Assembly (NCBI RefSeq): GCF_030506325.1
Contig: NZ_CP120683.1
Location: forward strand, 2,294,001-2,358,000
Direction: 5' to 3'
Source of the DNA: Tunicatimonas pelagia
GTDB lineage: Bacteria > Bacteroidota > Bacteroidia > Cytophagales > Cyclobacteriaceae
Length of the DNA stretch: 64,000 bases
Below are positions 5,343 through 47,833 of the stretch, one piece after another. Every line of letters starts with the position of its first letter. Position 1 is the stretch's first letter. The notes beneath the pieces were generated by a model. That model searched no databases. It was given only the letters and a program-made list of their open reading frames with translations, and had not been told where the DNA came from. A program made the translations under genes and the position numbers.

Positions 5343-6131
5343 TTACTCGGATAGCTGAGTTATTAGTAAGACTAACGTTATTGTACTGGTTATTAGACTA
5401 AAAATTGGGGAGATGTCCCGCAACACCTCTGAGGTTATTCGCTGCACGGGTTGTACATATATTATATCTCCTGGCAACACTTTCAGCGAGGCCTGCTTCA
5501 TACCCTCAACGGTTGATAAATTAATAAGCCTCACCTCGGGATCGTCGAGGTTACCCCGAATAAGGCGGATGTTATCGGTTCGGGAAATATTGCCTACCCC
5601 TCCGGCCAATGCTAATACTTCTACGAGATTGGTATTTTCATTCATCAGCGGAATTACTTGCCCACCTGCTGCCCCTAATACAATTACCCGTTTATTCACG
5701 TACCTCAGCAATACATAGGTATCTTCGTAAAACTCCTCGTACTGCTGTTTTAACAAATCAGTAGCTTCCTTCAGCGTGTAACCAGCAACCTCTACTTCAC
5801 CCACAAGAGGAAGTTCCACCACACCATTACTGAGTACTAAGTACTGGGGCATGAGTCGCATTTGGTTATTCTGATTCATCATACCTACTTCTCGGGCAAT
5901 TTCCCGGTTGGGATCAATTAGTAACTCCCCATCATTCGTGTATACCTCTACCTCCAAAAAATCATTAGGCTGGATTATATAATTTTTGTCTGCATCGGCC
6001 ACTGCTATTTGTAATTCTTCTTTTATGATCTCTTGCTCAGTGCTAAACAAAATACGGTTGCGGTACGCCCCACATGAACTTAGAAGAAATAACAAGCAAA
6101 CACAGACCGTAAGATGAAGGAGTACTTTCAA
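5343..6131 (-). CDS. Wza-like polysaccharide export lipoprotein
   Basis: A 262-residue outer-membrane polysaccharide-export protein. The signal peptide ends in lipobox 'LLSSC' (Cys20). A Poly_export domain begins near residue 52 ('NYIIQPNDFLEVEVYTND'), followed by SLBB-like strands ('RVIVLGAAGGQVIPL', 'LAGGVGNISRTDNIRLIRG'). The C-terminus has a hydrophobic stretch ('IFSLITSTITLVLLITQL') that fits the outer-membrane-spanning helix of Wza. It is sandwiched between rfbC and the Wzc-like kinase with gaps of 11 and 6 bp, forming the trans-envelope export machine with the latter. Confidence 0.92.
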   Translation of the reverse strand: MKVLLHLTVCVCLLFLLSSCGAYRNRILFSTEQEIIKEELQIAVADADKNYIIQPNDFLEVEVYTNDGELLIDPNREIAREVGMMNQNNQMRLMPQYLVLSNGVVELPLVGEVEVAGYTLKEATDLLKQQYEEFYEDTYVLLRYVNKRVIVLGAAGGQVIPLMNENTNLVEVLALAGGVGNISRTDNIRLIRGNLDDPEVRLINLSTVEGMKQASLKVLPGDIIYVQPVQRITSEVLRDISPIFSLITSTITLVLLITQLSE

Positions 6132-6142
6132 TAGCGTTAACC

Positions 6143-6700
6143 TTAAGTATACTGCTTCTGGTATTCAGACAAGCGAGGTAATGCCAAATCTTTATCGGAG
6201 ATAATGGGTTCCTGAATATCATATTTTTCCAGTTCCCAGTCGATGGCAAGATCGGCATCATCCCAAATGATTCCAGCCTCAGAAGCTTTATCATAAACAT
6301 TGGTACACTGATAGCTGAAAACACTTTCTTCTAGTGCCACAAAACCGTGGGCAAACCCTTCAGGTACGTAAAATTGGTTGCATCGCTCACTATCCAGCAC
6401 AACACTTTCGTAATGCCCAAAGGTAGAGGAACCTTTCCGAAGATCAACCGCCACATCTAGTACTTTCCCCTTACTTACACTCACCAGTTTACCCTGCTGA
6501 TAAGGTGGCAACTGCATATGTAGTCCGCGTAGTACCCCTTTGGTTGAGAAGGATTGGTTCGACTGGACAAATTGCCTATCTACACCGATTTCTCGGTATT
6601 TTTCTATATGAAATGTTTCCAGAAAGAACCCTCGACTATCTCGGTATAAATCTGGAATAATCTCTATTAGTCCTTCTATTGATGTTTTTCTTATCTTCAT
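6143..6700 (-). CDS. rfbC: dTDP-4-dehydrorhamnose 3,5-epimerase
   Basis: An RmlC/RfbC cupin of 185 residues, converting dTDP-4-keto-6-deoxyglucose to dTDP-4-keto-rhamnose for the polysaccharide made by the neighbouring genes. Family signatures include 'IEIIPDLYRDSRGFFLETF', 'FVQSNQSFSTKGVLRGLHMQ' with the catalytic His, 'GKVLDVAVDLRKGS' and 'FYVPEGFAHGFVALEE'. The start at 6700 (MKIRKTSIEGL) matches the family N-terminus; an ATG 15 bp upstream would add MLTSN. No rfbA, rfbB or rfbD is in the window, so the rest of the dTDP-sugar pathway is elsewhere or the product is another 6-deoxy sugar. Confidence 0.95.
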   Translation of the reverse strand: MKIRKTSIEGLIEIIPDLYRDSRGFFLETFHIEKYREIGVDRQFVQSNQSFSTKGVLRGLHMQLPPYQQGKLVSVSKGKVLDVAVDLRKGSSTFGHYESVVLDSERCNQFYVPEGFAHGFVALEESVFSYQCTNVYDKASEAGIIWDDADLAIDWELEKYDIQEPIISDKDLALPRLSEYQKQYT

Positions 6701-6762
6701 ATTGCTTGTAAGCAATTTTATGATAATAACTGGGAAAAGAAAATGCTTCCCGTAACTATTTA

Positions 6763-7878
6763 TTAGTTTACATTCATTTCATCTATGGCCCGAACGTATT
6801 TATCAACTACTACCTGCTGACTAAACTTAGCTTGCACCATCTCGCGTCCTCGCTCACCCATTACCCGTACTTCTTCCTGAGCCAGTTGAGCCATCGTTAG
6901 CATTTTCTCCGCCAAATCAGCAGCATCTCTTACTTTGCAAAGCAGTCCGTTTATTCCGTGCTTCACTACGTGCCGACAGCCCGGAGTATCAGTCGCTACA
7001 ATGGGTTTTTGTAAGCTGGCAGCTTCTAGTAACGTTCGGGGCAACCCTTCACGGTACGAGGGAAGCACCACACAATCGGCCTGTTGAATAAGGAAACGCA
7101 CATCATCTGTCGTTCCTAAGTAATCAACTACACCACTCTGAACCCACTGGTCAACCAGACCTACTGGAATTCCTCGCTTATGATTAGGATCTTTGGCCCC
7201 TAGTAGTTGGCATCGTACGGCAATACCCTGAGACTTCAACTGCTGAGCCGCCTCTATATATTCTACAATACCTTTGTCATAGATTAACCTAGAGATCACC
7301 AGGAAAGTGAATGTATGCTGGGAAGAAACTGGCTGACTATCTGGCTGAAATCGTAGCGTATCAATTCCCGAACCGGGCACTACATCTGCTTTATTACTAT
7401 TCAACAATCCCTCTCTGATAAATAGATCGTGGTCGTCGGGATTATGAAAAAATACTTTTTCGGAAAACCGGAAGGATACGCGATACAACCACTTAGCTAC
7501 CGCCGATACCATTCCATCTTGTAGAAAAACCGTACCCAACCCGCAAACATTATTAATAACCGGAATTTTTAGATAACTGGCCGCCAAGGTTCCGTAAATA
7601 TTGGGCTTCACCGTAAAATGAAGAATCAGATCTAGTTCTAACTTACCGTACAAACGGTATAGTTCTAAGATGAGGGATGCATCTCGCACGGGGTTTACCC
7701 CCCGGCTATCCATGTTTACATCGTACAATGTTATTCCATCCTCTCGCAAGCGATCGGAATAAGGGTCGGGCGGGGCAATTGAGACCACCTGATGACCTTG
7801 CTGCTGAAGAGCCTGGATTAATCCTAATCGGAAATTGTAAATGTTCCAAGCGGTGTTGGTAACAAGCGCAATTCTCAT
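6763..7878 (-). CDS. GT-B glycosyltransferase (family 4)
   Basis: A 371-residue retaining glycosyltransferase of GT4 type. The N-terminal domain begins 'MRIALVTNTAWNIYNFRLGL' and the C-terminal Glycos_transf_1 domain contains 'FTFLVISRLIYDKGIVEYIEA'. The nucleotide-sugar/phosphate-binding EX7E motif appears in 'PSYREGLPRTLLEAASLQKP'. It is the first gene of the leftward exopolysaccharide operon (glycosyltransferase, rfbC, Wza-like, Wzc-like) and presumably adds one sugar to the lipid-linked repeat unit. Sugar specificity cannot be read from sequence. The 290 bp upstream, toward the E1 dehydrogenase, probably hold the operon promoter, but I see no clear box there. Confidence 0.88.
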   Translation of the reverse strand: MRIALVTNTAWNIYNFRLGLIQALQQQGHQVVSIAPPDPYSDRLREDGITLYDVNMDSRGVNPVRDASLILELYRLYGKLELDLILHFTVKPNIYGTLAASYLKIPVINNVCGLGTVFLQDGMVSAVAKWLYRVSFRFSEKVFFHNPDDHDLFIREGLLNSNKADVVPGSGIDTLRFQPDSQPVSSQHTFTFLVISRLIYDKGIVEYIEAAQQLKSQGIAVRCQLLGAKDPNHKRGIPVGLVDQWVQSGVVDYLGTTDDVRFLIQQADCVVLPSYREGLPRTLLEAASLQKPIVATDTPGCRHVVKHGINGLLCKVRDAADLAEKMLTMAQLAQEEVRVMGERGREMVQAKFSQQVVVDKYVRAIDEMNVN

Positions 7879-8168
7879 GGAAAATAATTAATTGTAAGCC
7901 AGCTATTATTCCGACGTAATTACTACCCAGAGGTAGACGGGCTAATAGTTGAGCGCAATATACAATTTCCAATTTCTAAGCAATAACTACCTCAAAATCA
8001 GGGAGAGAGACCTTATGTAACTTTTTGAAAAAATTAACTGTAAGCTAAGTGGAAAGATAAAAGAAAAGGGATATAAATATTATAATAGCAAGAAACTATT
8101 ATACTGGAACTATATGCTTGACCATTTTATGAACTGCACCTGCTGTAAGAAAAGGGATCAGATAGTAT

Positions 8169-10640
8169 TTACCGGTACATTTCCTTAAACTGGCCTGGAT
8201 CGAATTCAACCATAAGGCTGTATACCGTATCGAAAACTGTTTCCACGTTGGGCTTAGAAAAATAGTCTCCGTCTGAGCCATAGGCCGGACGGTGCGCCCG
8301 ACTAGTGATCGTGCGGGGCTGAGAATCTAAGTACCGATAAGCCTGCTGCCCTTCTAGTACTTGCTGCATCATATAAGCCGATGCACCGCCAGGAACATCT
8401 TCATCCGCAAAAACCACCCGATTGGTCTTTTCAATAGATTTAACTATGCGATGATTAACATCAAAAGGGAGTAACGTTTGTACGTCAATCACGTCGCAAG
8501 AAATGCCGACTTCGGCTAATTCAGATGCTGCTTGCATTACCACCCGACACATGGAGCCGTAGGTAACAATTGTTACGTCGTTGCCCTCTCGTAGCACTTC
8601 AGGTTGGCCTAAAGGTACCGTAAACTCGCCTACGTTATTGGGCAGCTTTTCTTTCAGGCGGTAGCCGTTTAAGCTTTCTACAATCAGAGCTGGATCGTCG
8701 GACTGTAGCATGGTATTGTAGAATCCAGCTGCTTGCACCATATTTCGGGGAACCAGTATATAGATACCTCGCAAACTGTTTAGGATAGCTCCCATAGGCG
8801 AGCCGGAGTGCCAAATACCTTCCAAACGATGCCCACGAGTACGAATAATGAGCGGTGCTCCTTGCCCATTCATGGTTCGGTACCGCAGGGAGGCTAAATC
8901 ATCAGTTAGGGTGGCCAGTGCGTAGTAGATATAGTCTAAGTACTGTATCTCTACAATCGGACGTAAGCCCCGCAAAGCCGCGCCGATGCCTTGACCAATG
9001 ATAGACGGCTCCCGAATTCCTGTATCGGTCACTCGCAGAATGCCGTGTTTGGCTTGTAATCCGGCGAAGCCCTGGTTTACATCCCCAATTTTACCTACAT
9101 CCTCTCCAATGGCAAAAATCCGTGGGTCGCGGGCTAGTGCTTCATCAAAGCACGCATTTAGTACTTGCCGACCGTCTACTGACTTACTGCTCTTGTTAAA
9201 TGAGGGAGGAATAGTCGGAACATTCAACGCAGATTTTTTAGTTTGGCTGTACAGGTGACTGCTGTACCGCTCCTCGTTGTCTTCTCCGTAGGAATTTAAC
9301 CATTCAATAAGCTGATTACGCGCTTCGTGCTGCTCGTTTCGTACCAGCCGTAACGTTTTTTTCGCTAAGCGTACCACATCTAAGCGACTAGCATTAGGCT
9401 TCTTCTCCACTTGCTTAATAAGCTGCTGAATAGTCACTTTTTCTGAGCTCGCCTGAGCAACGGCTACAACCAACTGCTTAGCTTGACTAATTTCGGCATT
9501 CAGCTCACTACGGTAGGCCTTCCAGGCGGCATCCCGAGCTTGCCGGGCGGTATGTTTGGCTGCTTCTTCTATTTCGTCCAATCGCTCTTCAGAAGCAAAA
9601 CCGTTATTAACGATCCACTCCCGCATTTTTCGGTTGCAGTCGTACTCGCTCTCCCAAGCCAACCGCTCTTCGGATTTATACCGCTCGTGCGAGCCAGAGG
9701 TAGAGTGCCCCTGCGGTTGGGTTAACTCTTCCACATGAATCAGTATGGGTACATGTTTTCTTCGCGACAATCGGGTAGCAGCCTGATACGTTTCGCACAG
9801 ATTTTCGTAGTCCCACCCTTTTACAGTAATAATCTCCAGACCTTCTGTCGCCGATGTTCGCTGAAAACCTTCCAACGCTTCCGAAATGCTTTCTTTGGTG
9901 GTATGATATTCCTTAGGAACCGAGATTCCGTAGCCATCGTCCCAAACAGAAATTACCAACGGCACCTGCAAAACCCCGGCAGCATTTACTGTTTCCAGGA
10001 ACATGCCTTCCGACGTAGAGGCATCACCAATAGTGGCGAACGTCACTTCGCTACCATTTACTGAAAACCGGCCCATGTCGTGCAGTTCCGGGTTCTGGCG
10101 GTACAGTTTGGAAGCGTAGGCTAATCCTAGTGAGCGAGGAATTTGTCCCGCTGTGGGTGAAAGATCCGACCCAGTATTATACTGATCGGTTTGAGAGTGA
10201 AATTGCCCGGTTTCAGGGTCAATTAGGCGGGTGCCGAAGTGAGAATTCATGGAACGCCCACCGGAAGAAGGTTCGTGCTCAACATTAGCGTGTGCGTAAA
10301 TCTGAGCAAAAAACTGCTGTAAGGTAATTTGCCCGGTGGCGAACATAAACGTCTGGTCGCGGTAGTAACCCGAACGAAAATCTCCCTTCTGAAAAGCTTT
10401 GGCCATCGCAATCTGAGCTACTTCTTTGCCGTCACCAAACACGCCAAATTTTGCCTTGCCCATGAATACTTCCTTTCGGCCTAACAAGCTGGTGTGACGG
10501 CTCTCCCAGGCAATGCGATAGTCGTTTAGAATCTCTTCTATGGATAAATCAAGTGCTATGTGGTCTTGCGTTGTTTTCGATTCCACGATTTGAGGATTAC
10601 ATTGAACCAAATTCGTTCCTGAATTCAAATATCGTTGCAA
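8169..10640 (-). CDS. Fused alpha/beta E1 component of a 2-oxoacid dehydrogenase (branched-chain type)
   Basis: At 823 residues this is a natural fusion of the E1 alpha subunit (about 1-400) and beta subunit (about 480-823). The alpha half has the thiamine-diphosphate motif 'GDASTSEGMFLETVNAAGV' and the phosphorylation-loop-like 'GHSTSGSHERYKSEE'. The beta half has 'AIGEDVGKIGDVNQGFAGL' and 'YGSMCRVVMQAASELAEVGI'. It decarboxylates branched-chain 2-oxoacids or pyruvate and transfers the acyl group to an E2 lipoyl domain encoded elsewhere. The fused arrangement is usual in Bacteroidota. It stands alone on its strand and is divergent from the small gene upstream of secDF. Substrate choice is inferred only. 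Confidence 0.9.
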   Translation of the reverse strand: MQRYLNSGTNLVQCNPQIVESKTTQDHIALDLSIEEILNDYRIAWESRHTSLLGRKEVFMGKAKFGVFGDGKEVAQIAMAKAFQKGDFRSGYYRDQTFMFATGQITLQQFFAQIYAHANVEHEPSSGGRSMNSHFGTRLIDPETGQFHSQTDQYNTGSDLSPTAGQIPRSLGLAYASKLYRQNPELHDMGRFSVNGSEVTFATIGDASTSEGMFLETVNAAGVLQVPLVISVWDDGYGISVPKEYHTTKESISEALEGFQRTSATEGLEIITVKGWDYENLCETYQAATRLSRRKHVPILIHVEELTQPQGHSTSGSHERYKSEERLAWESEYDCNRKMREWIVNNGFASEERLDEIEEAAKHTARQARDAAWKAYRSELNAEISQAKQLVVAVAQASSEKVTIQQLIKQVEKKPNASRLDVVRLAKKTLRLVRNEQHEARNQLIEWLNSYGEDNEERYSSHLYSQTKKSALNVPTIPPSFNKSSKSVDGRQVLNACFDEALARDPRIFAIGEDVGKIGDVNQGFAGLQAKHGILRVTDTGIREPSIIGQGIGAALRGLRPIVEIQYLDYIYYALATLTDDLASLRYRTMNGQGAPLIIRTRGHRLEGIWHSGSPMGAILNSLRGIYILVPRNMVQAAGFYNTMLQSDDPALIVESLNGYRLKEKLPNNVGEFTVPLGQPEVLREGNDVTIVTYGSMCRVVMQAASELAEVGISCDVIDVQTLLPFDVNHRIVKSIEKTNRVVFADEDVPGGASAYMMQQVLEGQQAYRYLDSQPRTITSRAHRPAYGSDGDYFSKPNVETVFDTVYSLMVEFDPGQFKEMYR

Positions 10641-30110: not shown

Positions 30111-30710
30111 CTAGCCGATTGCTTTTTTAATTATCTCCAAAGAACCTGAAGAGAACGGTAAGCTAAGTGCTGCTTGCTGTCCTTGCCCCGACATTTTTCG
30201 CCAGGTTTTAGCCACAATATCTATGACTTTTTCATCGGTATGTTTCTTAGCAAACGCGGCAAAGTAGTACTGTAGGAAAACCAGACAGATTACATCTTCC
30301 AGCACTTGCACCTCCGCATCGCGTTTTAATTGCTTTTTGCTAATTAGAGATACCACCCGAGCGACTGCTTCCTGCTCGTAGCCTTGCTCCTGCATAATCT
30401 CGGCAGCCCGATTACTGTGGAATTTTTTAAGCTGGCTACGCCACAGCAGATAGCCTTTACGATCCATCGGATACTGATTTCGTGGTATTTTCCAACGCTC
30501 AATATGCTGGCTGCGGGCGGCTAATTGCAGAGTTTCAGGAGCATCCGGATAAAAAGCGTGTAGGGTTTCGCTCATCCGCTGAGCGTAGAGCAACTCCGAA
30601 GGTACTACCCGCCCAGCTTCATCGTAATCGGTTCGGGGATCCTGCCGGTTGGCTTGGTCAAAAGCTGCCAGCGTACGGGGAAGTCGATGAATACTACTAT
30701 CGTGGGCCAT
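30111..30710 (-). CDS. DUF4202-type protein
   Basis: A 199-residue soluble protein matching my memory of the DUF4202 family: 'AFDQANRQDPRTDYDEAG', 'ELLYAQRMSETLHAFYP', 'LAARSQHIERWKIPRNQYP' and 'EDVICLVFLQYYFAAFAKKH'. The His-containing helix 'RSQHIERW' and paired acidic residues suggest an HD-like metal site, but this is inference. It lies next to cobA and nirB, and DUF4202 genes are often found beside nitrite or sulfite reductase genes, so a role in siroheme or nitrite metabolism is plausible. No biochemical function is known to me. Confidence 0.75.
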   Translation of the reverse strand: MAHDSSIHRLPRTLAAFDQANRQDPRTDYDEAGRVVPSELLYAQRMSETLHAFYPDAPETLQLAARSQHIERWKIPRNQYPMDRKGYLLWRSQLKKFHSNRAAEIMQEQGYEQEAVARVVSLISKKQLKRDAEVQVLEDVICLVFLQYYFAAFAKKHTDEKVIDIVAKTWRKMSGQGQQAALSLPFSSGSLEIIKKAIG

Positions 30711-31695: not shown

Positions 31696-34185
31696 ATGCG
31701 TCATATTGTTGTCATCGGAAACGGAATGGTAGGTTACAAATTCTGCGAGAAGCTACGTAAGCTAGCTGACCCTACTCAAGTAGCCATTACCGTATTTGGA
31801 GAAGAGTGCCGTCCGGCTTACGACCGGGTACATTTAAGCGAGTACTTTAGCGACCAGAATGCTGACAAACTCACTTTAGCCCCCGCTCGCTGGTATGAAG
31901 AGCAGAACATTCAATTACATACCGGCGAACTGATTGCCTGGATTGACCGAAGGAATAAAACCGTAGAAACCCATCGGGGTAAAACGTTGAGCTACGATCA
32001 ATTAGTAATTGCCACCGGCTCTAGTGCCTTTGTTCCACCCATACCGGGTACCGACAAGCGGGGAGTGTTTGTGTACCGCACTATTGAAGACCTGGAAGCC
32101 ATTATCGCCTATGGCAAAAAAATGCGATCGGCAGCGGTGCTGGGTGGTGGTTTGTTAGGGCTGGAGGCGGCAAAAGCTATGGTTGATATGGGTTTGGAAA
32201 CTCACGTAGTAGAATTTGCTTCTCGCCTTATGCCCCGGCAGTTAGACGAAGTCGGAGCCCGCACGCTGCAAACCCGAATAGAGGAATTAGGTATTCAAGT
32301 TCACCTGAACAAAAATACACAAGCGATTAGCGGCAATGGTAAATTGGATGCGCTGCGCTTTGCCGACGAATCTAACTTACCAGTAGATATGCTGGTGATC
32401 TCGGCGGGCATTCGCCCTCGTGATGAGCTGGGTCGTTCTGCGAGACTAGATATTGGGCCACGGGGCGGAATTGTGGTAAATGACGCTATGCAAACCTCTG
32501 ACCCCGCTATCTACGCTATTGGAGAGGTCGCATTACATCAGGATATAATCTACGGGCTAGTAGCCCCGGGGTACGATATGGCCGAAGTAGCGGCTCGTCA
32601 TTTGGTGGGCGATATTGAGAAAAACTTTTCCGGAGATGATATGTCTACCAAGCTCAAGCTAATGGGCGTAGATGTGGCGAGCTTCGGTGATGCTTTCGGG
32701 GCAAAATCTGAGCACAACGCGATTGTTTTCGAAGATAAGGCGAAAGGAGTCTACAAACGTATCAATATTTCAGCGGATGGTAAACGACTATTAGGGGGAA
32801 TGTTGGTGGGCGATGCCGAAGCCTACAATATGCTATTGCAAACCATGCAAAATGGCATGGCTCTTCCGCCCAATCCGGAAGATCTGATCTTGGGAAGCCG
32901 AGGCGGAGAAACTTCGGGAGCTGGTCTGGATAGCTTACCCGACGAAGCCCAAATTTGCTCTTGCGAGGCGGTAACTAAAGGAATGATTTGCGAAGCAGTG
33001 CTCACCGGAGAGGCGCAGAGCGTAAAAGAAATCAAAGCCTGTACCAAAGCGGGTACGGGCTGCGGGGGCTGTATGCCAATGGTATCCGATCTGTTTGACC
33101 TAGCTCAAGCCAAAATGGGAAAACGGGTTCGGAAAACGCTTTGCGAACATTTTAACTATACCCGTCAGGAGCTACTAGACATTATTCAGGTAAAAGAAAT
33201 AAAATCGTACGATACTCTACTGAATGAATACGGAACGGGTGATGGCTGCGAGGTATGCAAACCGGCGGTAGCTTCTATCTTGGCAAGCCTCTGGAATGAA
33301 CTGGTTACCCAGCAAGACACCATCCAGGATACGAACGACCGTTTTCTGGCCAATATTCAGCGGGGCGGCACCTACTCGGTAGTGCCTCGGATTCCGGGTG
33401 GGGAAATTACTCCGGACAAGCTCATCGTCATTGGGCAGGTAGCGAAAAAGTACGATTTATATACGAAGATTACCGGAGGGCAGCGCATAGACTTATTTGG
33501 TGCTCACTTGCACCAGCTACCCGACATCTGGGAAGAACTTATTGCGGCGGGTTTTGAGAGCGGTCACGCCTACGGCAAATCCCTACGAACTGTTAAAAGC
33601 TGCGTAGGTTCAGCTTGGTGCCGCTATGGCTTGCACGATTCGGTCTCTTTTGCCATCGAAGTGGAAGATCGCTACAAAGGCCTTCGTTCTCCCCATAAGC
33701 TAAAGGGTGCTGTATCAGGTTGCGCCCGAGAGTGCGCGGAAGCCCAAAGCAAAGATTTTGGCATTATTGCTACCGACAAAGGCTGGAATCTTTACGTATG
33801 CGGCAACGGCGGAATAAAACCTCAACATGCCTTGCTGCTGGCGCAGGACGTAGATAAAGAAACCTGCATCAAGTACATTGATCGCTTCCTGATGTTTTAC
33901 ATCAAAACCGCCGAGACTCTGACTCGTACCGCCCCTTGGCTCAATAAGCTAGAAGGAGGCATTGACTACTTACGAGATGTAGTGGTAAACGACTGCCTTG
34001 GTATTGGCGAGCAGCTAGAACAGGAAATGCAACGTACTTTAGCCGTGTACCGCTGCGAGTGGAAGGAAGTAGTGAACAACCCCGAGCTACGGGCTAAATT
34101 CACCCACTTTATTAATTCCGAGGCTACCGATCCCGCCGTACAGTTCGATGAAATGCGCGGGCAAAAAGTACCAGCCAAATGGTAA
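31696..34185 (+). CDS. nirB: NADH-dependent assimilatory nitrite reductase, large subunit
   Basis: An 829-residue cytoplasmic enzyme reducing nitrite to ammonium. Domain order: FAD/NAD oxidoreductase (1-400; 'IVVIGNGMVGYKF', 'AAVLGGGLLGLEAA', 'PAIYAIGEVALH'), two BFD-like [2Fe-2S] domains ('ICSCEAVTKGMICEAV' and 'GDGCEVCKPAV'), a ferredoxin-like half domain ('YTKITGGQRIDLFGA') and the siroheme-[4Fe-4S] domain with Cys ligands in 'SCVGSAWCRYGL' and 'VSGCARECAEA'. All cofactor ligands are present. It is followed 30 bp or more later by nirD and divergently paired with cobA. Confidence 0.97.
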   Translation: MRHIVVIGNGMVGYKFCEKLRKLADPTQVAITVFGEECRPAYDRVHLSEYFSDQNADKLTLAPARWYEEQNIQLHTGELIAWIDRRNKTVETHRGKTLSYDQLVIATGSSAFVPPIPGTDKRGVFVYRTIEDLEAIIAYGKKMRSAAVLGGGLLGLEAAKAMVDMGLETHVVEFASRLMPRQLDEVGARTLQTRIEELGIQVHLNKNTQAISGNGKLDALRFADESNLPVDMLVISAGIRPRDELGRSARLDIGPRGGIVVNDAMQTSDPAIYAIGEVALHQDIIYGLVAPGYDMAEVAARHLVGDIEKNFSGDDMSTKLKLMGVDVASFGDAFGAKSEHNAIVFEDKAKGVYKRINISADGKRLLGGMLVGDAEAYNMLLQTMQNGMALPPNPEDLILGSRGGETSGAGLDSLPDEAQICSCEAVTKGMICEAVLTGEAQSVKEIKACTKAGTGCGGCMPMVSDLFDLAQAKMGKRVRKTLCEHFNYTRQELLDIIQVKEIKSYDTLLNEYGTGDGCEVCKPAVASILASLWNELVTQQDTIQDTNDRFLANIQRGGTYSVVPRIPGGEITPDKLIVIGQVAKKYDLYTKITGGQRIDLFGAHLHQLPDIWEELIAAGFESGHAYGKSLRTVKSCVGSAWCRYGLHDSVSFAIEVEDRYKGLRSPHKLKGAVSGCARECAEAQSKDFGIIATDKGWNLYVCGNGGIKPQHALLLAQDVDKETCIKYIDRFLMFYIKTAETLTRTAPWLNKLEGGIDYLRDVVVNDCLGIGEQLEQEMQRTLAVYRCEWKEVVNNPELRAKFTHFINSEATDPAVQFDEMRGQKVPAKW

Positions 34186-34308
34186 AACCGGAAAAGGGAG
34201 AACGAAGAAAGGTTAGTGGGTTATACTTTTCATTCATTTAGCATTCGCTCCCTCTTACGTTTCCCATCCTCCTTTTTCCTAATCTCTAAAATCCAATCTC
34301 CAAAAGCT

Positions 34309-34686
34309 ATGACTAATACGCTAGACTATAAAACCGTTTCATCAGAAAATGTAACCAACTGGTTCAAAGCTGCCCCGGTAACCGCATTTCCCGCCAATGG
34401 TGGGGCGTGTGTGTTGTACCGGGGAAAGCAAATTGCCGTATTTAATTTCACCCGCCGGGACGAATGGTACGCTTGCCAGAACCTTTGCCCGCACAAGCAG
34501 CAAATGATTCTCTCCCGAGGGATGATTGGTTCGGAGCAAGACGAGCCGAAGGTGGCCTGCCCATTTCATAAGCGGGCCTTTTCACTCCAGTCAGGAAAAT
34601 GCCTTAACGCCGATGAATGCGCTATTGCCACGTACCCGGTGAAAATAGAAGAGGGCTACGTATACATCGGTTTTGACGAAGCCTGA
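34309..34686 (+). CDS. nirD: Nitrite reductase small subunit (Rieske type)
   Basis: A 125-residue Rieske [2Fe-2S] protein, partner of NirB. The cluster ligands are in 'QNLCPHKQQM' and 'ACPFHKRAFSL'. I chose the ATG at 34309 (MTNTLDYKTVSSENV) because residues upstream of it, from GTG 34216, resemble translated intergenic repeat and are not family-like. The 123-bp gap after nirB is purine-rich on one side and pyrimidine-rich on the other, giving weak self-complementarity. Confidence 0.92.
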   Translation: MTNTLDYKTVSSENVTNWFKAAPVTAFPANGGACVLYRGKQIAVFNFTRRDEWYACQNLCPHKQQMILSRGMIGSEQDEPKVACPFHKRAFSLQSGKCLNADECAIATYPVKIEEGYVYIGFDEA

Positions 34687-38512: not shown

Positions 38513-38902
38513 ATGAAAAACGAACAATGCCCAATATGCTACTCAAAGCTTGAGGTTGTAGATTGTGCACCTTGTAACGACTGTGGGCATTTGGAGGAAG
38601 AGATTGAACATTTTAAGCAAGGCAAACACCAATACAATGTTTACAATATTTATAGGGGGCTAAAATTACAACTATGTGACTTCTGTGATGTTGACTTTGG
38701 ATCGTATAAAGGTGAATATCTCGGATTTAATGATAATAAGAGGATTGGATACGAAAACTTTGAATTCGTCTCTTCCGTAGAAGCACCCTCAATTGAAAAG
38801 GCTAAATACTGTCCTGAATGTGGAAATCAGCTAGCTTTCTTGAAGTTTCTTAGAGATTTGAGGGAATTCATTAAAAAAGAAACTGTTGCTGGCAAAAAGT
38901 AA
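38513..38902 (+). CDS. Uncharacterised zinc-ribbon-like protein
   Basis: A 129-residue Cys-rich protein. Pairs 'CPICYSKL' and 'CAPCNDCGHL' near the N-terminus, 'CDFCDVDFG' in the middle and 'CPECGNQL' at the end make four CxxC knuckles, enough for two zinc ribbons. No membrane segment. It lies between the NarL-like regulator and mobA in the same direction (28 and 30 bp gaps), so it is probably co-transcribed and may serve the nitrate island. I do not recognise a named family and infer no specific function. Confidence 0.65.
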   Translation: MKNEQCPICYSKLEVVDCAPCNDCGHLEEEIEHFKQGKHQYNVYNIYRGLKLQLCDFCDVDFGSYKGEYLGFNDNKRIGYENFEFVSSVEAPSIEKAKYCPECGNQLAFLKFLRDLREFIKKETVAGKK

Positions 38903-39881: not shown

Positions 39882-41162
39882 ATGCTTCAATCATTTACCA
39901 AACTTTGCCTAGCAGTTTTGCTGGTAAGTCTAAGCACCACAGCGTACAGTCAATTCACGCTGAGTGGTCAGATACGCCCCCGGGCTGAATTCCGAAACGG
40001 GTTCAAAACCCCCAACACCGAGGCTAATGATCCTGCGTTCTTTATTGAGCAACGATCCCGAATTAACTTCGGCTACCAACACGAAAAATTAGCGTTTCAA
40101 TTATCCCTGCAAGACATACGCATCTGGGGAAATGCGGCTCAGATATATAAAAATGATCCGGCACTCACTAATGTGTACGAAGCCTACGGCGAGTACCGCT
40201 TCTCTCCTAAAACCGCTATTCGAGTCGGCCGCCAAGCTTTAAACTACGATAATGCCCGGTTTCTGGGAGATCTCGACTGGGCCCAGCAGGGACGTAGCCA
40301 CGATGCCGCCTTGCTCATGCTAAGTGACTCCAGTGGCTGGAAACTTCATGTGGGTGCAGCTTATAATCAAAATGTTCCCTTTGAACCGGGACAGCTTTCG
40401 GGCACCTTCTACGACGGGGTAAATAATTATAAAACTATGCAGTTTGCTTGGTGGCATAAAGACTGGGCTGCCGCTAATGCTTCATTCCTCATCTTCAACG
40501 ATGGCCGTCAACTGGCCGATTCTAGTCTTAATTTTCGCCAAACCTACGGATTTATCGGTAGCAAGCAGATCAAAACAGTTAAACTCACTGGCGAGCTGTA
40601 CTACCAGGGCGGGAAAGATCCGGCTGATCAGGATGTGAACGCCTGGCTTATCGCACTAAACGCTACTGTCAACACTTCGCTCACCCCGCTTACGTTAGGG
40701 TTTGATTATCTGTCGGGTTCAGAGGCGAATGCCAATACTAACCGAGCGTTTGTCCCGCTCTACGGCACCAATCATAAGTTTTACGGCCTTATGGACTATT
40801 TCTACGTGGGTAACAATCACGGTCAGGGCGGGCAAACGGCTGGTTTACTAGATGTGTACGTGCAGTCCAAATTCAAACTCAGTAAAAAATCGGCTTTAAT
40901 CGCCCACGCTCATTACTTTCAATCGCCTACTACTATTTACGCAATGGAAGGTACCGGAGAAAAGCTTTCCGGTACGCTGGGCGAGGAAATAGATTTAGTG
41001 TACAATCTCAACCTAAGCGATGAGGTTAATTTTAAGCTAGGCTACTCCCACCTATTCTCTACGGAATCACTGGAAGCCCTTAAGGGCGGAGCACAACGAC
41101 AGGGTCAAAACCAATGGGCCTGGATGATGCTCACCTTCAACCCTACCTTTATTTCTAAGTAA
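39882..41162 (+). CDS. Alginate-export-family outer-membrane porin
   Basis: A 426-residue exported beta-barrel. The signal peptide ends near 'LSTTAYSQFTLSG'. The barrel begins 'QIRPRAEFRNGFKTP' and is rich in alternating strand patterns such as 'INFGYQHEKLAFQLSLQDIR', 'TAIRVGRQALNYDNARFLG' and the terminal 'WAWMMLTFNPTFIS', fitting the alginate_exp barrel family. In this cluster it is more likely a channel for nitrate, nitrite or another anion across the outer membrane than an alginate exporter; no alginate genes are nearby. Placed directly before the NarK-type transporter and carries the cluster's strongest operator. Confidence 0.83.
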   Translation: MLQSFTKLCLAVLLVSLSTTAYSQFTLSGQIRPRAEFRNGFKTPNTEANDPAFFIEQRSRINFGYQHEKLAFQLSLQDIRIWGNAAQIYKNDPALTNVYEAYGEYRFSPKTAIRVGRQALNYDNARFLGDLDWAQQGRSHDAALLMLSDSSGWKLHVGAAYNQNVPFEPGQLSGTFYDGVNNYKTMQFAWWHKDWAAANASFLIFNDGRQLADSSLNFRQTYGFIGSKQIKTVKLTGELYYQGGKDPADQDVNAWLIALNATVNTSLTPLTLGFDYLSGSEANANTNRAFVPLYGTNHKFYGLMDYFYVGNNHGQGGQTAGLLDVYVQSKFKLSKKSALIAHAHYFQSPTTIYAMEGTGEKLSGTLGEEIDLVYNLNLSDEVNFKLGYSHLFSTESLEALKGGAQRQGQNQWAWMMLTFNPTFISK

Positions 41163-41283: not shown

Positions 41284-42639
41284 ATGAAATCCAACAAAGC
41301 GACTTCCATCAATTTGTTTAGTCTCAAAACTATCCAGATGCGTACTTTTCATCTGAGTTGGTTTGCTTTCTTTTTGTGCTTCTTCGGCTGGTTTGGCATC
41401 GCCCCGCTTATGGCTGTAGTTCGGGATGAACTAGATTTAACTAAAGGGCAAATTGGGAATATTATTATCTCTTCCGTAGCCATTACCGTGTTTGCCCGGT
41501 TAGCAATTGGCTGGCTCTGCGATAAAATTGGTCCGAGAATTACCTATACTTACCTACTAATCTTAGGTTCTATTCCGGTGATGTTGATTGGGCTAAGCAA
41601 CAGCTACGAAAGCTTTCTCATCTTTCGCCTTGCCATCGGGGTGATCGGGGCATCGTTTGTGATTACTCAGTACCACACATCCATGATGTTTGCCCCTAAT
41701 GTGGTTGGTACGGCTAATGCCACCACCGCCGGTTGGGGTAACTTGGGCGGAGGAGTTACTCAAATGGTGATGCCTCTCATTTTTGCGGCATTTGTCGGGC
41801 TTGGCTTTCTAGATGCCTCTGCTTGGCGTTACGCGATGCTAGTTCCCGCCGTCGCCTTGGTAATCTGCGGAATACTTTACTATCGTTTCACTACCGATTA
41901 TCCCGAAGGCAATTTGAAAGACTTGAAAAAGATTAACCCTGACTTTGCAGCTAAGAGTAAGAATGCCAAAGGCTCATTTGTGGCTGCTATGAAAGATTAC
42001 CGGGTTTGGGCGTTGTTTGTTATCTACGGCGCCTGCTTTGGAGTAGAACTCACGATCAATAACATTGCAGCTATCTACTACCACGACTATTTTAATCTGG
42101 ACCTGAGAATGGCTGGGCTCATCGCCGGACTGTTCGGGCTGATGAATATCTTCGCTCGTTCGCTGGGTGGTATCTTTGGCGACCGGGCCGGTATCAAGTA
42201 CGGACTGAAGGGTCGCGTAGCATTTTTAGGTATCGTTCTACTCCTGGAAGGGATCGCGCTGATTATCTTCTCCAAGATGGCGGTGCTGCCGTTGGCGATT
42301 ATCAGCATGATCGTATTCAGTCTGTTCGTACAAATGTCTGAAGGAGCTACCTACTCAGTGGTGCCATTCATTAATAAGAAAGCTATTGGTGCTGTATCGG
42401 GAATCGTTGGTGCGGGTGGTAATGCCGGCGCCGTAGCAGCTGGCTTCCTGTTCAAAGCTGAAAATATCTCCTATCCCGAAGCGCTCACCATTGTAGGAAT
42501 GGTCGTGGTCGGAGTATCTGCTCTGTCCATGCTGGTTCGCTTCTCTACGGTAGCTGAAACTGAAGCCAAAGCCGAGATGGACATAGCACTGGCTAGTAAA
42601 GCTGCTCTAAAATCTGAACCTATTCCGGTCACTGCATAA
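41284..42639 (+). CDS. NarK/NasA-type nitrate/nitrite MFS transporter
   Basis: A 451-residue inner-membrane major facilitator with 12 predicted helices. Nitrate-transporter signatures are visible: 'FHLSWFAFFLCFFGWFGIAP', 'FRLAIGVIGASFVITQYHTS', 'GTANATTAGWGNLGGGVTQM' (nitrate signature with conserved Gly-rich helix) and 'VSGIVGAGGNAGAVAAGFLF' (second nitrate signature). It imports nitrate, and possibly exports or imports nitrite, to supply the reductase encoded next. Lies 105 bp upstream of the nitrate reductase gene. Confidence 0.94.
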   Translation: MKSNKATSINLFSLKTIQMRTFHLSWFAFFLCFFGWFGIAPLMAVVRDELDLTKGQIGNIIISSVAITVFARLAIGWLCDKIGPRITYTYLLILGSIPVMLIGLSNSYESFLIFRLAIGVIGASFVITQYHTSMMFAPNVVGTANATTAGWGNLGGGVTQMVMPLIFAAFVGLGFLDASAWRYAMLVPAVALVICGILYYRFTTDYPEGNLKDLKKINPDFAAKSKNAKGSFVAAMKDYRVWALFVIYGACFGVELTINNIAAIYYHDYFNLDLRMAGLIAGLFGLMNIFARSLGGIFGDRAGIKYGLKGRVAFLGIVLLLEGIALIIFSKMAVLPLAIISMIVFSLFVQMSEGATYSVVPFINKKAIGAVSGIVGAGGNAGAVAAGFLFKAENISYPEALTIVGMVVVGVSALSMLVRFSTVAETEAKAEMDIALASKAALKSEPIPVTA

Positions 42640-42744: not shown

Positions 42745-45700
42745 ATGAAGTCATCTTCCCCCATTCGTACCACTTGTTCTTACTGCGGAGTAGGCTGCGG
42801 AATCCTCGTAAACCAGGATGCCAAAGGCCGCATTGAGGTGAAAGGCGATCCTGATCATCCGGTCAATCGGGGAATGCTTTGCTCTAAGGGAATGAACCTG
42901 CACCATGTGGCGCAAAACCATACCGACCGCATTCTGTATCCGCATATGCGGTGGAGCCGCCATCATCCTATGCAGCGGGTCAACTGGGATACAGCTATTC
43001 AACGGGCGGCTGCCGTCTTTAGCTCAATCATTGATCGGCATGGGCCGGATTCGGTAGGGCTTTACGTATCGGGGCAGTGCCTGACTGAAGAATACTACTT
43101 GGCCAACAAGCTTACCAAGGGCTTTTTAGGAACCAATAATATTGATACCAACTCCCGCTTGTGCATGAGTTCAGCGGTGGTAGGCTACGTGAAAGCTTTC
43201 GGGGAAGATGCGGTGCCGATTAGCTACGAAGATATTGAACTAGCCGATTGTTTCTTCATTGCGGGAGCCAACCCAGCCTGGTGTCATCCTATTTTGTTCC
43301 GGCGTATTGAGCAGCACAAGGAACGTAATCCCAACACCAAAATTATTGCGGTTGATCCTCGCCAAACCCAAACTTGTTCTCAAGCTGATCTGCATCTGCA
43401 AATCCGTCCGGGCACTGATACCACTTTGTACCAAGCCATCGGTCGCTGCCTGATTGAACAGGGCGATATTGACCTAACATTTATTAAGAGCCATACCGAC
43501 GGCTTCGAGAAGTACCGTAAGGAGGCAATGCAAACCACGTTAGCCGAAGCGGCAGCCATCTGCGATGTATCTATTGATGACATTAAAAAAGCCGCTCGCT
43601 GGATTGGAGAGTCTAAAGGCTTCTTGACCATGTGGGCAATGGGGCTAAACCAGAGTACTTCCGGAGTCAATAAAAACTTAGCCCTCATCAACCTTAACTT
43701 GATTACAGGACATATCGGCAAGCCCGGCTCTGGCCCATTCTCTCTCACCGGACAACCCAATGCGATGGGCGGACGGGAGGTAGGTGGGATGGCCAACCTA
43801 CTGGCAGCTCACCGAAACTTGCTTGACCCCGCGCAACGCCAAGCCGTAGCCGACTTTTGGGAGGTAGAAAAAATTGCCGATAAACCAGGACTCACGGCTA
43901 CCCAAATGATTGACGCCCTAGAAGATGGGCGCATGAAAGCGATCTGGATTATTTGCACTAATCCGCTGGTAAGTTTGCCTAACGCCCGGCGGGTAGAAGC
44001 CGCCCTGAAGAAAGCTTCGTTTGTCATCGTGCAGGATATTTCCTATCGCTCAGATACGGTGCCCTTCGCTGATTTATTGCTACCAGCGGCCGGATGGTTG
44101 GAGAAGGAAGGCACCATGACTAACTCGGAACGACGGATTACCTACTTACCCAAAGTGATTGACGCTCCCGGGGAAGCCCTGCCCGATGCAGAGATTCTGT
44201 GTCGCTTTGCTCAAAAGATGGGTTACTCCAGCTTTAATTACCCGGATACGGCGGCAATTTACGCTGAGCACTGTGCATTGACGAAAGGAACCAATATTGA
44301 TATTTCCGGGCTGAGCTATGAAACTTTAAAAGCCCGTAAAACGGTGCAGTGGCCGGTTCCTTCGGCCGATCACCCGGGTACTCCCCGGCTGTTTACCGAT
44401 CATAAATTTTACACGCCTAACGGACGAGCCCAAATTCTTCCCAGCGGGCCTTCTCACCCCGCTGATACCACCACTCCCGATTATCCGTTTATTCTGACTA
44501 CCGGACGCATCCGCGATCAGTGGCATACTATGACCAGGACCGGAACGGTACAAAAGCTTAATCAGCACTTATCAACCCCATTTTTGGAGATTCATCCTGA
44601 TGATGCCCGGGCAAGGGGTATCAAAGATCGAGATACGGTCGTGATTCGAAATGATCAGGGGGAAGTGCGGGTTCATGCTAAAGTCACCAAGACCATTAAA
44701 CGTGGGGTAGTGTTTCTGCCGATGCACTGGGGAAAGCTACTTCAGCAAGATTTTAGCCGGGCCAATAACCTAACTACCGGAGTGATTGATCCGGTTTCTA
44801 AGGAGCCGGACTTCAAATACACGGCAGTAGAAGTAGCTCGCTATCAGAAAGAAAAGCAAAAGATTATCATCGTTGGAGCCGGGGCTGCCGCCTACCGATT
44901 TATTAATACTTACCGGGAGCTCAATCAGGATGATGAGCTACACGTATTTTCCAAAGAGGCTCACCCATTTTATAATCGGGTACTACTGCCCGAATACGTC
45001 AACGATCAATTGGGCTGGGATGACTTAGTGAAGTTTAAAACGGCTGACGCCTTTGATGAGCTAAACGTTCAATTGCACGCTTCTAATCCCGTTGAGTCTA
45101 TTAACCGGGAGAAAAAAATCATCACCGACAGTCAGGGGCAAACCCACCGTTACGACTTGCTGGTTCTGGCCACCGGAAGCCGGGCGTTCGTTCCCCCGGA
45201 TGTACCCATGCATTACCCTGGCATTTTTACCTTGCGCGACCGCAGCAACGCCGATAAACTCAAAGCCTACTTGCCCGAAGAAAGTCAGGTGCTGATTGTA
45301 GGGGGTGGTTTGTTAGGATTAGAGTTGGCAGCGGCGTTATCAGAAGTAGGAGTTCAAGTGTCTATTGTGCAGCTTTCTTCCCGGCTGATGGAACGACAAC
45401 TAGACACCACCGCTAGCACCTTGCTCCGCGAGCAAGTAGAGCAGATGGGGATTAAAATTTACACTAACGATCAAGTACAATTGATCGATCCTCATCGTCC
45501 CCGAGAACCAATCCAAGTTCGACTTAAAAGTGGTAAAGCTCTGGGTTGCCACGCAGTAGTGTATGCCGTTGGTACCCGCCCGAACAGTGAATTAGCCAAA
45601 GAGGCCAAACTGGACTGTGGACGAGGGGTGAAAGTAAACGATTACCTGCAAACCTCCGACCCGACTATTTTTGCCTTAGGTGAGATTGCCCAACATCGGG

Positions 45701-46257
45701 AAAAAATACTGGGAATTACCGCGGCGGCCGAAAAACAAGCTGATGTTGCCGCTCGCTTCATCAATGGTGATCTACTTAGTCGCTACGAGGGTAGTGCGCC
45801 CATGAATATCCTGAAATTCACAAATCTGAACCTCTGCTCCGTTGGTATTCCCGAAGTTCCCCACCCGCAACGGGACGAATACGAAGAGGTGGTATTTATC
45901 GATAAGGCAAAAGCATACTACAAAAAATGCATTATTCACCAGGATCAGCTAGTAGGTGCCATTTTGATGGGGAGCAAGGACGAATTTGCGGAGTTTAAGC
46001 AACTTATTGAGACCCAAACTGAACTGGGTGACCAACGAGAGCAGCTCCTGCGAAGCAAAGGGGAACGTCAAGCGGTGATTGGCAAAATTGTATGCTCCTG
46101 CGGAAACGTTGGACAGGGAAATATCGATCAGGCTATTGAACAAGGAGCCGATCAGCTAAACACCCTTTGTCAGGCCACCGGGGCCGGATTAGGTTGCGGA
46201 AGCTGCAAACCCGAAATACAAGCTATCCTGAAGGAGAAAGCCACAGTAATCGTGTAG
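42745..46257 (+). CDS. Assimilatory nitrate reductase fused to a NirB-like flavoprotein/BFD module
   Basis: A 1170-residue cytoplasmic enzyme. The first 700 residues are a bis-MGD molybdoenzyme of the NasA/NasC class: [4Fe-4S] ligands in 'TTCSYCGVGCGILV' and 'MLCSKGMNL', then 'SRLCMSSAVVGYVKAFGED', 'SLTGQPNAMGGREVGGMAN' and a C-terminal molydop-binding domain ('LTTGRIRDQWHTMTRTG'). From about 705 there is an FAD/NAD(P) oxidoreductase domain ('IIIVGAGAAAYRFI', 'VLIVGGGLLGLELAAALSEV', 'PTIFALGEIAQH') and a final BFD [2Fe-2S] domain ('VCSCGNVGQGNI', 'GAGLGCGSCKPEI'). The tail is homologous to the NirB N-terminus, so a NasB-like electron-transfer unit is covalently attached. Confidence 0.93.
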   Translation: MKSSSPIRTTCSYCGVGCGILVNQDAKGRIEVKGDPDHPVNRGMLCSKGMNLHHVAQNHTDRILYPHMRWSRHHPMQRVNWDTAIQRAAAVFSSIIDRHGPDSVGLYVSGQCLTEEYYLANKLTKGFLGTNNIDTNSRLCMSSAVVGYVKAFGEDAVPISYEDIELADCFFIAGANPAWCHPILFRRIEQHKERNPNTKIIAVDPRQTQTCSQADLHLQIRPGTDTTLYQAIGRCLIEQGDIDLTFIKSHTDGFEKYRKEAMQTTLAEAAAICDVSIDDIKKAARWIGESKGFLTMWAMGLNQSTSGVNKNLALINLNLITGHIGKPGSGPFSLTGQPNAMGGREVGGMANLLAAHRNLLDPAQRQAVADFWEVEKIADKPGLTATQMIDALEDGRMKAIWIICTNPLVSLPNARRVEAALKKASFVIVQDISYRSDTVPFADLLLPAAGWLEKEGTMTNSERRITYLPKVIDAPGEALPDAEILCRFAQKMGYSSFNYPDTAAIYAEHCALTKGTNIDISGLSYETLKARKTVQWPVPSADHPGTPRLFTDHKFYTPNGRAQILPSGPSHPADTTTPDYPFILTTGRIRDQWHTMTRTGTVQKLNQHLSTPFLEIHPDDARARGIKDRDTVVIRNDQGEVRVHAKVTKTIKRGVVFLPMHWGKLLQQDFSRANNLTTGVIDPVSKEPDFKYTAVEVARYQKEKQKIIIVGAGAAAYRFINTYRELNQDDELHVFSKEAHPFYNRVLLPEYVNDQLGWDDLVKFKTADAFDELNVQLHASNPVESINREKKIITDSQGQTHRYDLLVLATGSRAFVPPDVPMHYPGIFTLRDRSNADKLKAYLPEESQVLIVGGGLLGLELAAALSEVGVQVSIVQLSSRLMERQLDTTASTLLREQVEQMGIKIYTNDQVQLIDPHRPREPIQVRLKSGKALGCHAVVYAVGTRPNSELAKEAKLDCGRGVKVNDYLQTSDPTIFALGEIAQHREKILGITAAAEKQADVAARFINGDLLSRYEGSAPMNILKFTNLNLCSVGIPEVPHPQRDEYEEVVFIDKAKAYYKKCIIHQDQLVGAILMGSKDEFAEFKQLIETQTELGDQREQLLRSKGERQAVIGKIVCSCGNVGQGNIDQAIEQGADQLNTLCQATGAGLGCGSCKPEIQAILKEKATVIV

Positions 46258-46339: not shown

Positions 46340-47833
46340 ATGACTGAAACATTACTTTCGGAAGATTCCGTAGGAAAACGTACCTTGCCCATTGTGTTGA
46401 TTCGAGTGTTTGTCAAGGGCGGTATTATCTCACCGGGCGATTTGCTGGGGGTGCTCAAGGTAGCTCAAGCCTTAGACCTGGATTATATCCACTTAGGTTC
46501 ACGGCAAGATATTCTCTTTCCTATTGAGAAATCTAAAGTTGATTTGTTACCCGTGCTACTGGCAGCGTTACCATTGCCGTATGAATATCAGGAAAGTGAG
46601 CAGCAAAACATCATAAGTTCGTACATCACCCGCGACATCATTTCTTCCACTCGCTGGCTAGCTCCCCACATCTACCACTACGTTCTGGATAGCTTCGACT
46701 ACCTCCCTACGCACAAGATTAATATCATTGATCCCTTGCAGGGCATGGTTCCGTTGTTTACGGGGAATATCAACTTCATTGCCTCGCCTATTGACAACTA
46801 CTGGTACCTGTATTTTCGCTATACCGATATTCAGGCCAAACCCTGGTGTTGCCCCGAACTAATTTACGGCTTTGATCTGGCCAAAGTAGCTCAAGCCGTG
46901 GAGAAGCTCAATCCCCTAGCCAACCAACTCTCTTTCTCTCAACTCTACGAACAGCTTAAGCAGCAGGTACACTTTAACACTCGACCTATTGAGCAACCTT
47001 TAGCGTACCCCGATACCATGTTTCCTTACTACGAAGGCATCAATCTGATGGAAGGTGGTAAGTACTGGATGGGATTGTACTGGCGAAATAATCGGTTTAC
47101 TATCAAATTTTTGCAGGCCCTTTGCGAACAATGTTTGGCCACCAACATCGGTAATATTGGGTTAACCCCCTGGAAGTCTATTGTAGTAAAAGGTATTACC
47201 GAAGGCGACCGACTGGCCTGGGAGAAGCTATTGGGGAAGTACGGTATCAATATGCGTCATTCCTCTCTCGAGCTAAATTGGCATATACCCGTAGCTGATG
47301 ATGAAGCACTTGAACTAAAGAATTATTTGGTTCGGGTGTTAGACCAACGCGATATTAGCACCTACGGATTGACATTTTCCGTAAAAACCCAAGCCCATCA
47401 GATATTATTTTCCTCAGTAGCTATTGAGAGAGTAGTTGCTAGCAATGAGCAGGCACCCACGCAATACAATATTCTATACGCTAAAGACTTCAACCCCAAC
47501 CTGTTCGAATTTATTTACTACGCCCGATCAGTGAGTAAAGAAGTTATTCCTTCCTTACTGATAGAGTTAAGTAAGAAATACTACGAACAGTTGCACGCCA
47601 AGACCGTGCCATCGGAAAAATCAGTGCAGCTTTCCTTATCTTCTGTTGCTGAAGATCGGCAGGTTTATCAATGCACACAATGCCTGGGAGTATACGATAG
47701 CCAAATTGGTAACCCCAGTGCGGAGATTAACCCTGGTGTAACCTTTGAAGATTTGCCGGAAGACTACACTTGCCACGTCTGCAGTGCTCCGAAGGCTAGT
47801 TTTGCCAAAATCACGTTATCTGAGTTGCTGTGA
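46340..47833 (+). CDS. Rubredoxin fused to a degenerate nitrite/sulfite-reductase-like fold
   Basis: A 497-residue protein. The C-terminal 55 residues are a rubredoxin with iron ligands in 'YQCTQCLGVY' and 'YTCHVCSAPK'. The rest resembles siroheme nitrite/sulfite reductases: a first ferredoxin-like half domain ('GIISPGDLLGVLKVAQALDL' then 'IHLGSRQDILFP') and a second ('FLQALCEQCLATNIGNIGLT' then 'PWKSIVVKGI'). Where siroheme enzymes have GCPxxC cluster ligands, this protein reads 'IIDPLQGMVPLFTGNINFIA' with no Cys, so the siroheme-[4Fe-4S] site appears lost. It ends the nitrate operon and may deliver electrons to nitrate reductase. Function is inferred. Confidence 0.72.
   Translation: MTETLLSEDSVGKRTLPIVLIRVFVKGGIISPGDLLGVLKVAQALDLDYIHLGSRQDILFPIEKSKVDLLPVLLAALPLPYEYQESEQQNIISSYITRDIISSTRWLAPHIYHYVLDSFDYLPTHKINIIDPLQGMVPLFTGNINFIASPIDNYWYLYFRYTDIQAKPWCCPELIYGFDLAKVAQAVEKLNPLANQLSFSQLYEQLKQQVHFNTRPIEQPLAYPDTMFPYYEGINLMEGGKYWMGLYWRNNRFTIKFLQALCEQCLATNIGNIGLTPWKSIVVKGITEGDRLAWEKLLGKYGINMRHSSLELNWHIPVADDEALELKNYLVRVLDQRDISTYGLTFSVKTQAHQILFSSVAIERVVASNEQAPTQYNILYAKDFNPNLFEFIYYARSVSKEVIPSLLIELSKKYYEQLHAKTVPSEKSVQLSLSSVAEDRQVYQCTQCLGVYDSQIGNPSAEINPGVTFEDLPEDYTCHVCSAPKASFAKITLSELL

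Follow-up and report, generated by a model that had tools for sequence, protein, structure and literature searches.

Siroheme reductases, comprising the sulfite reductase hemoprotein (CysI/SiRHP), NirA and plant ferredoxin-nitrite reductase, share a two-half fold with two NIR_SIR_ferr half domains. The combination of such an enzyme with a rubredoxin has been described in NIRFU, a nitrite reductase-rubredoxin-FNR fusion of Micromonas and other prasinophytes, the reductase part of which is 53% identical to the tomato protein and close to plant nitrite reductase (PMC5344333). A C-terminal rubredoxin behind an oxidoreductase core is also found in the flavorubredoxin NorV, which works with the reductase NorW.

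The window analyzed here, a stretch of 64,000 nucleotides from Tunicatimonas pelagia, encodes a 497-aa protein that resembles each of these systems and matches none of them completely. Its predicted structure has the two-half fold of the siroheme reductases (Z 25-28), but the protein shows no PF01077 match, lacks the four cluster/siroheme Cys, would not be expected to perform siroheme chemistry and carries an added rubredoxin. Like NIRFU, it consists of a siroheme-reductase part followed by a rubredoxin and is linked to nitrate assimilation; NIRFU, in contrast, is eukaryotic, adds an FNR domain and has an apparently ordinary reductase part. The first-pass annotation had stated that no characterized protein with this build was known, which does not hold for the pairing of siroheme reductase and rubredoxin (PMC5344333), although the reductase part of NIRFU resembles the ordinary plant enzyme. 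As for NorV, the core is followed by a C-terminal rubredoxin, and the adjacent gene, for a nitrate reductase fusion, contributes an NADH/FAD module of the NorW family; the core, however, has a siroheme-reductase fold rather than that of a flavodiiron protein and no recognizable catalytic metal site. Finally, the best NCBIfam match of the core is CobG (precorrin-3B synthase, TIGR02435), which is also matched by 18 of 20 relatives (best E 1.6e-8); yet the protein reaches only 23 bits against a cut-off of 234.8 and lies in a nitrate operon, not a cobalamin operon. No model in Pfam or NCBIfam covers the whole protein.

Domain architecture and metal-site residues

The gene and its encoded features are as follows:

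46340..47833, + strand: gene for the siroheme-reductase-like/rubredoxin protein (497-aa ORF)
46400..46540, + strand: first NIR_SIR_ferr half domain (Pfam PF03460), residues 21-67, holding 'LGSRQDILFP'
47051..47239, + strand: second NIR_SIR_ferr half domain, approximately residues 238-300, holding 'LTPWKSIVVKGI' (22.4 bits on its own against the Pfam cut-off of 24)
47123..47134, + strand: conserved Cys pair (C262-x-x-C265) carried by a helix within the second half domain, off the known ligand positions
47258..47389, + strand: residues 307-350, aligned with both Cys motifs of the [4Fe-4S]-siroheme centre of CysI/NirA and Cys-free here
47600..47650, + strand: linker, residues 421-437, of low confidence (pLDDT <50)
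47660..47812, + strand: rubredoxin domain, residues 441-491, with Cys 445/448/478/481

Both half domains had been recognized earlier from 'LGSRQDILFP' and the second motif listed above, and each of these motifs falls within a PF03460 match; taken over both stretches, the whole protein scores 43.8 bits against a cut-off of 24. The 20 relatives first aligned all match PF03460 and show the same domain pattern. The complete four-Cys rubredoxin proposed to close the chain was likewise recovered by Pfam (PF00301 at residues 443-488, E 2.1e-13, 50.5 bits against a cut-off of 23). Its CxxC...CxxC cysteines are invariant in all 66 rubredoxin-bearing sequences and persist where the domain is shortened, as in L014 and L077; among the 20 relatives, one has such a shortened domain with all four Cys. 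Judged by these residues, the domain is intact.

The AlphaFold2 model, calculated from a 20-row alignment, has a mean pLDDT of 85, with low confidence at the N-terminus and the linker. Residues 19-421 superimpose on E. coli SiRHP with a Z score of 27.9 (383 residues, 3.3 Å), followed by spinach nitrite reductase (25.6) and M. tuberculosis NirA (25.0), and residues 440-492 align with rubredoxins at Z scores of up to 9.9. A Foldseek search with the model likewise pointed to siroheme reductases, and a search of solved structures by sequence returned matches to the rubredoxin part only. The fold assignment had been left open to refutation by structure prediction, and the model does match the siroheme reductases, with a complete two-half fold predicted.

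The metal centre, in turn, is missing from this fold. Neither the protein nor any of its 20 relatives matches the 4Fe-4S half domain PF01077, whereas genuine NirA-type reductases of related operons match it twice. In a profile-profile alignment to NirA-type sequences and CysI (97% probability, E 2.8e-10, 14% identity), the first CysI Cys pair falls into a loop that is shortened here, near 'RHSSLELNWH', and the second pair falls near 'LTFSVKT'; the protein has no Cys at either ligand-motif position, and none of 73 aligned sequences holds four Cys in this region. The absence of the siroheme/cluster site, claimed by the first-pass annotation, is thereby borne out. The same annotation had named Cys ligands elsewhere in the chain as a way in which the site might be rebuilt. 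Ahead of the rubredoxin, the only Cys are C170, C171, C262 and C265; only C262 and C265 are conserved (45 and 47 of 48 sequences, respectively), and in the profile alignment they do not coincide with the ligands of E. coli CysI. A standard Fe-S site assembled from other Cys was therefore ruled out, since the core conserves only these two; together with H307 they may form a mixed site.

We also compared the basic residues of the pocket, using residue roles that we assume from CysI and taking R83, R153, K215 and K217 to be its active-site basic residues in E. coli. CysI R83 corresponds to R22 (R in 40 and K in 6 of 48 sequences), and R55, which is invariant, aligns with R117; other residues stand in place of R113 and R153, and the alignment is ambiguous in the K215/K217 strand. 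As all four siroheme/[4Fe-4S] Cys ligands are lost from the aligned positions, the protein is almost certainly incapable of reducing nitrite or sulfite by the usual chemistry, and it is best read as a siroheme-reductase pseudoenzyme. At approximately 14% identity to NirA, CysI and CobG, a tree is unreliable, and we therefore do not claim descent from NirA.

Despite this loss, the gene is under purifying selection. Closely related, unsaturated pairs gave dN/dS ratios of 0.010-0.058 for the core and of 0.06-0.15 for linker plus rubredoxin (Nei-Gojobori), and R55, Q56, W106, Q134, N145, E232, W243, Y247, R249, K279 and K327 do not vary among the 66 rubredoxin-bearing sequences. A pseudogene or chance ORF was ruled out by these ratios and by more than 70 intact sequences. 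The related idea of a decaying, functionless relic of a NirA-type reductase draws on the distance from active enzymes (14% identity in the profile alignment), but is effectively refuted by the selection data, with dN/dS at 0.01-0.06 in the core, reading frames intact in more than 70 sequences and strict linkage to two other genes; we regard it as having next to no chance of being correct.

Genomic context and distribution in Bacteroidota

The pseudoenzyme gene lies in a nitrate island with the following further members:

31696..34185, + strand: NirB, full-length nitrite reductase large subunit
34216..34686, + strand: NirD, nitrite reductase small subunit
41284..42639, + strand: NarK-like nitrate/nitrite MFS transporter, the gene preceding the fusion
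42745..46257, + strand: fused assimilatory nitrate reductase, with a NasC-like catalytic part (residues 1-698) and a NirB-N-like NADH/FAD and BFD [2Fe-2S] part (residues 705-1165)

The fusion directly precedes the pseudoenzyme gene and the next long ORF downstream, starting at 48263, is no nitrate gene, in agreement with the proposed position at the end of the island. This arrangement recurs in other genomes, as expected from the proposed tie to the fused nitrate reductase. In each of the 45 fetched loci in which both genes are visible, the pseudoenzyme gene follows the fusion downstream and on the same strand, no more than 1 kb away except in L015 (2.4 kb); three further fetched loci were too short to show the order. 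In a sample of 119 genomes of family f17, it was found just downstream in 22 of 22 fusion genomes. A mirror-tree correlation of 0.92 between pseudoenzyme and fusion over the 45 loci was not used as evidence of contact, because vertical descent alone can yield such a value.

Several other genes of the island were recorded in passing. A 129-aa protein with several CxxC pairs (38513-38902) has no good NCBIfam match. The gene beside narK (39882-41162) encodes a relative of the 'alginate export family' that occurs near nitrate genes in many loci; its product is perhaps an outer-membrane channel for nitrate. A DUF4202-like protein (30111-30710) by cobA/nirB recurs in several other nitrate islands, and cobA itself is close by in many loci.

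To place the gene in the phylum, we drew 395 genomes across Bacteroidota. The pseudoenzyme was found over most of its length in 29, the fusion in 33 and full-length NirB in 28. Full NirB, on the one hand, and the fusion together with a rubredoxin-bearing pseudoenzyme, on the other, mark the very same 28 genomes; these span eight families (f1, f11, f13, f16, f17, f19, f20 and f36) and, owing to shared ancestry and joint transfer, do not represent independent trials. In G163, the remaining holder, the copy is without a rubredoxin, and fusion and NirB are both absent. Three exceptions lie outside this sample: in G450, the assembly of which is fragmented, the pseudoenzyme and NirB were found but no fusion; G469, at 83% completeness, lacks full NirB; and G005 combines the pseudoenzyme with a partial fusion at a contig end and has no full NirB. 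The operon also occurs on plasmids of Hymenobacter, Spirosoma and Persicobacter. On a Hymenobacter volaticus plasmid (L058, NZ_CP095062.1), nirB (6018-8521) consists of two overlapping ORFs, 6018-7262 and 7259-8521, and is absent from the gene table; the split may be a frameshift or a sequencing error. Beyond Bacteroidota, a scan of close relatives together with plasmids returned lone rubredoxins only.

Five of the 395 genomes hold the fusion without the pseudoenzyme (G254, G088, G046, G191 and G215, represented by the alternative operons L101-L105 in this order). Full-length NirB is absent from all five, and in every one a two-half siroheme reductase is encoded near the fusion. In the three loci read by Pfam (L101, L104 and L105), this reductase carries 4Fe-4S half domains. 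In L101 and L104, the NirA-type reductase gene is followed by genes for a flavodoxin and an FAD/NAD(P)H reductase, and the ORFs of L102 match those of both loci in size and order; at least sometimes, this kit brings its own electron supply. Since the five fusion genomes with a NirA-type reductase have neither NirB nor pseudoenzyme, the fused nitrate reductase comes with one of two alternative kits: a NirA-type two-half reductase, or NirBD plus the rubredoxin-bearing pseudoenzyme. The pseudoenzyme thus belongs to the fusion/NirBD type of nitrate assimilation of Bacteroidota.

One clade departs from this pattern. Seven copies in family f17 (L079 and L130-L135) stop before the rubredoxin and form a single clade (support 100/100), and G163, considered a lone exception at one point, was no longer treated as such once its clade was found. 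As these copies are nested among rubredoxin-bearing sequences, the rubredoxin was most simply lost there. Six genomes have only a rubredoxin-free copy, and all six are without fusion and without NirB; the seventh (G521) has a rubredoxin-free copy in addition to a normal copy beside the fusion. The invariant core residues are retained in the clade, save F384 and T341 in part, and the seven loci share no informative neighbor gene. Second full-length copies, found in G437 and G530, lie near a gene of the RelA/SpoT family and one for a universal stress protein, neighbors that gave no hint of a role. As loss of the rubredoxin coincides with the absence of fusion and NirB, the rubredoxin goes with the nitrate pathway, whereas the core is able to survive alone. 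Because it does so without fusion or NirB, it must serve some purpose by itself in these genomes.

Possible roles beside the fused nitrate reductase

Our favored reading, to which we would give somewhat less than an even chance, is that Bacteroidota of the NirBD type keep the pseudoenzyme as a dedicated partner for their fused nitrate reductase, with the rubredoxin carrying electrons. In the complex that we infer, the dead reductase core would bind to the fused nitrate reductase and possibly to NirBD too; the rubredoxin, tethered by its flexible linker, would shuttle single electrons between NADH/FAD modules and reductases, in a direction that is likewise presumed. The rubredoxin probably is a carrier of single electrons, and its reduction is plausible, as the fusion contains a NorW-family NADH/FAD module: the flavoprotein part resembles the NADH:rubredoxin reductase NorW (E 1.4e-56), a likeness common to many flavoproteins of the NorW family. 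The linkage to the fusion would also fit the electron-transfer scaffold suggested by the first-pass annotation. Against the partner reading, the same fusion lives without the pseudoenzyme in the five NirA-type genomes, and rubredoxin-free cores persist without fusion or NirB. Moreover, every Fe-S Cys of the fused nitrate reductase is present and no insertion specific to pseudoenzyme-holding genomes was found in it, so that nothing visibly needs an extra electron carrier; the retained Cys also ruled out a role as a stand-in for a lost nitrate reductase cluster.

The same data bear on three other roles. The core could act as a structural adaptor that bridges the fused nitrate reductase and NirBD, handing over nitrite unreleased, with the rubredoxin being structural or redox-sensing rather than a carrier. 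This would explain why the protein is present exactly where fusion and NirBD must cooperate and absent alongside a NirA-type reductase, and the slower evolution of the core relative to linker and rubredoxin points the same way; yet the constancy of the four rubredoxin Cys in 66 sequences, shortened domains included, and the lack of a partner-specific insertion in the nitrate reductase leave us regarding the adaptor as unlikely. Alternatively, the pocket may have been retooled to bind an anionic ligand or another cofactor (for example, a cluster-less tetrapyrrole, nitrite or NO), for a reaction of its own or for sensing, with electrons from the rubredoxin. R55, which aligns with CysI R117, is identical together with Q56, Q134, N145, R249, K279 and K327 in all 66 rubredoxin-bearing sequences and in all seven rubredoxin-free copies, and the core alone persists in one clade. 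This invariance may, however, come from folding or contacts; moreover, the core has lost the counterparts of CysI R113 and R153 and shows no evident set of metal ligands, and a retooled pocket is rather improbable in our view. A maturation or siroheme-delivery factor for NirB or the fused nitrate reductase, to which we assign a still lower chance, would account for the co-occurrence with NirB in 28 of 28 sample genomes and for cobA near many loci, and a siroheme-reductase fold might retain siroheme in order to pass it on. The pseudoenzyme co-occurs with NirB as well as with the fusion, so that the assembly factor for NirB suggested by the first-pass annotation may also apply. The fusion, however, exists without the pseudoenzyme in five genomes. 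Delivery has no obvious need of a rubredoxin either, and E. coli and B. subtilis, which served as search controls, have NirB; E. coli NirBD is active without such a protein, and neither species is known to need one. A wider form of the retooling idea, in which the siroheme pocket serves another ligand or reaction and the pseudoenzyme is a third, hitherto unrecognized necessary component of nitrate assimilation in Bacteroidota that leads a separate life beyond the pathway in the rubredoxin-free clade, likewise strikes us as unlikely.

Although its component parts are known, a siroheme reductase that is dead yet conserved and constantly accompanies a nitrate pathway has, to our knowledge, not been described before; our literature search returned no paper on the pseudoenzyme and no mutant data. 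Wherever the genes are annotated, the public product name is 'rubredoxin' (for example, WP_245126150.1 and WP_232563077.1, both full-length), a name that hides the siroheme-reductase core.

Overall, one version of the nitrate-use pathway probably requires the pseudoenzyme, which has not been described as part of it. If so, NirB-type nitrate assimilation in Bacteroidota would have a component that is missing from standard accounts, and the protein would clearly exemplify a metalloenzyme that lost its metal centre and was retained as a partner protein. The three-way co-occurrence, together with the clade that has naturally lost the rubredoxin, makes its role directly testable.
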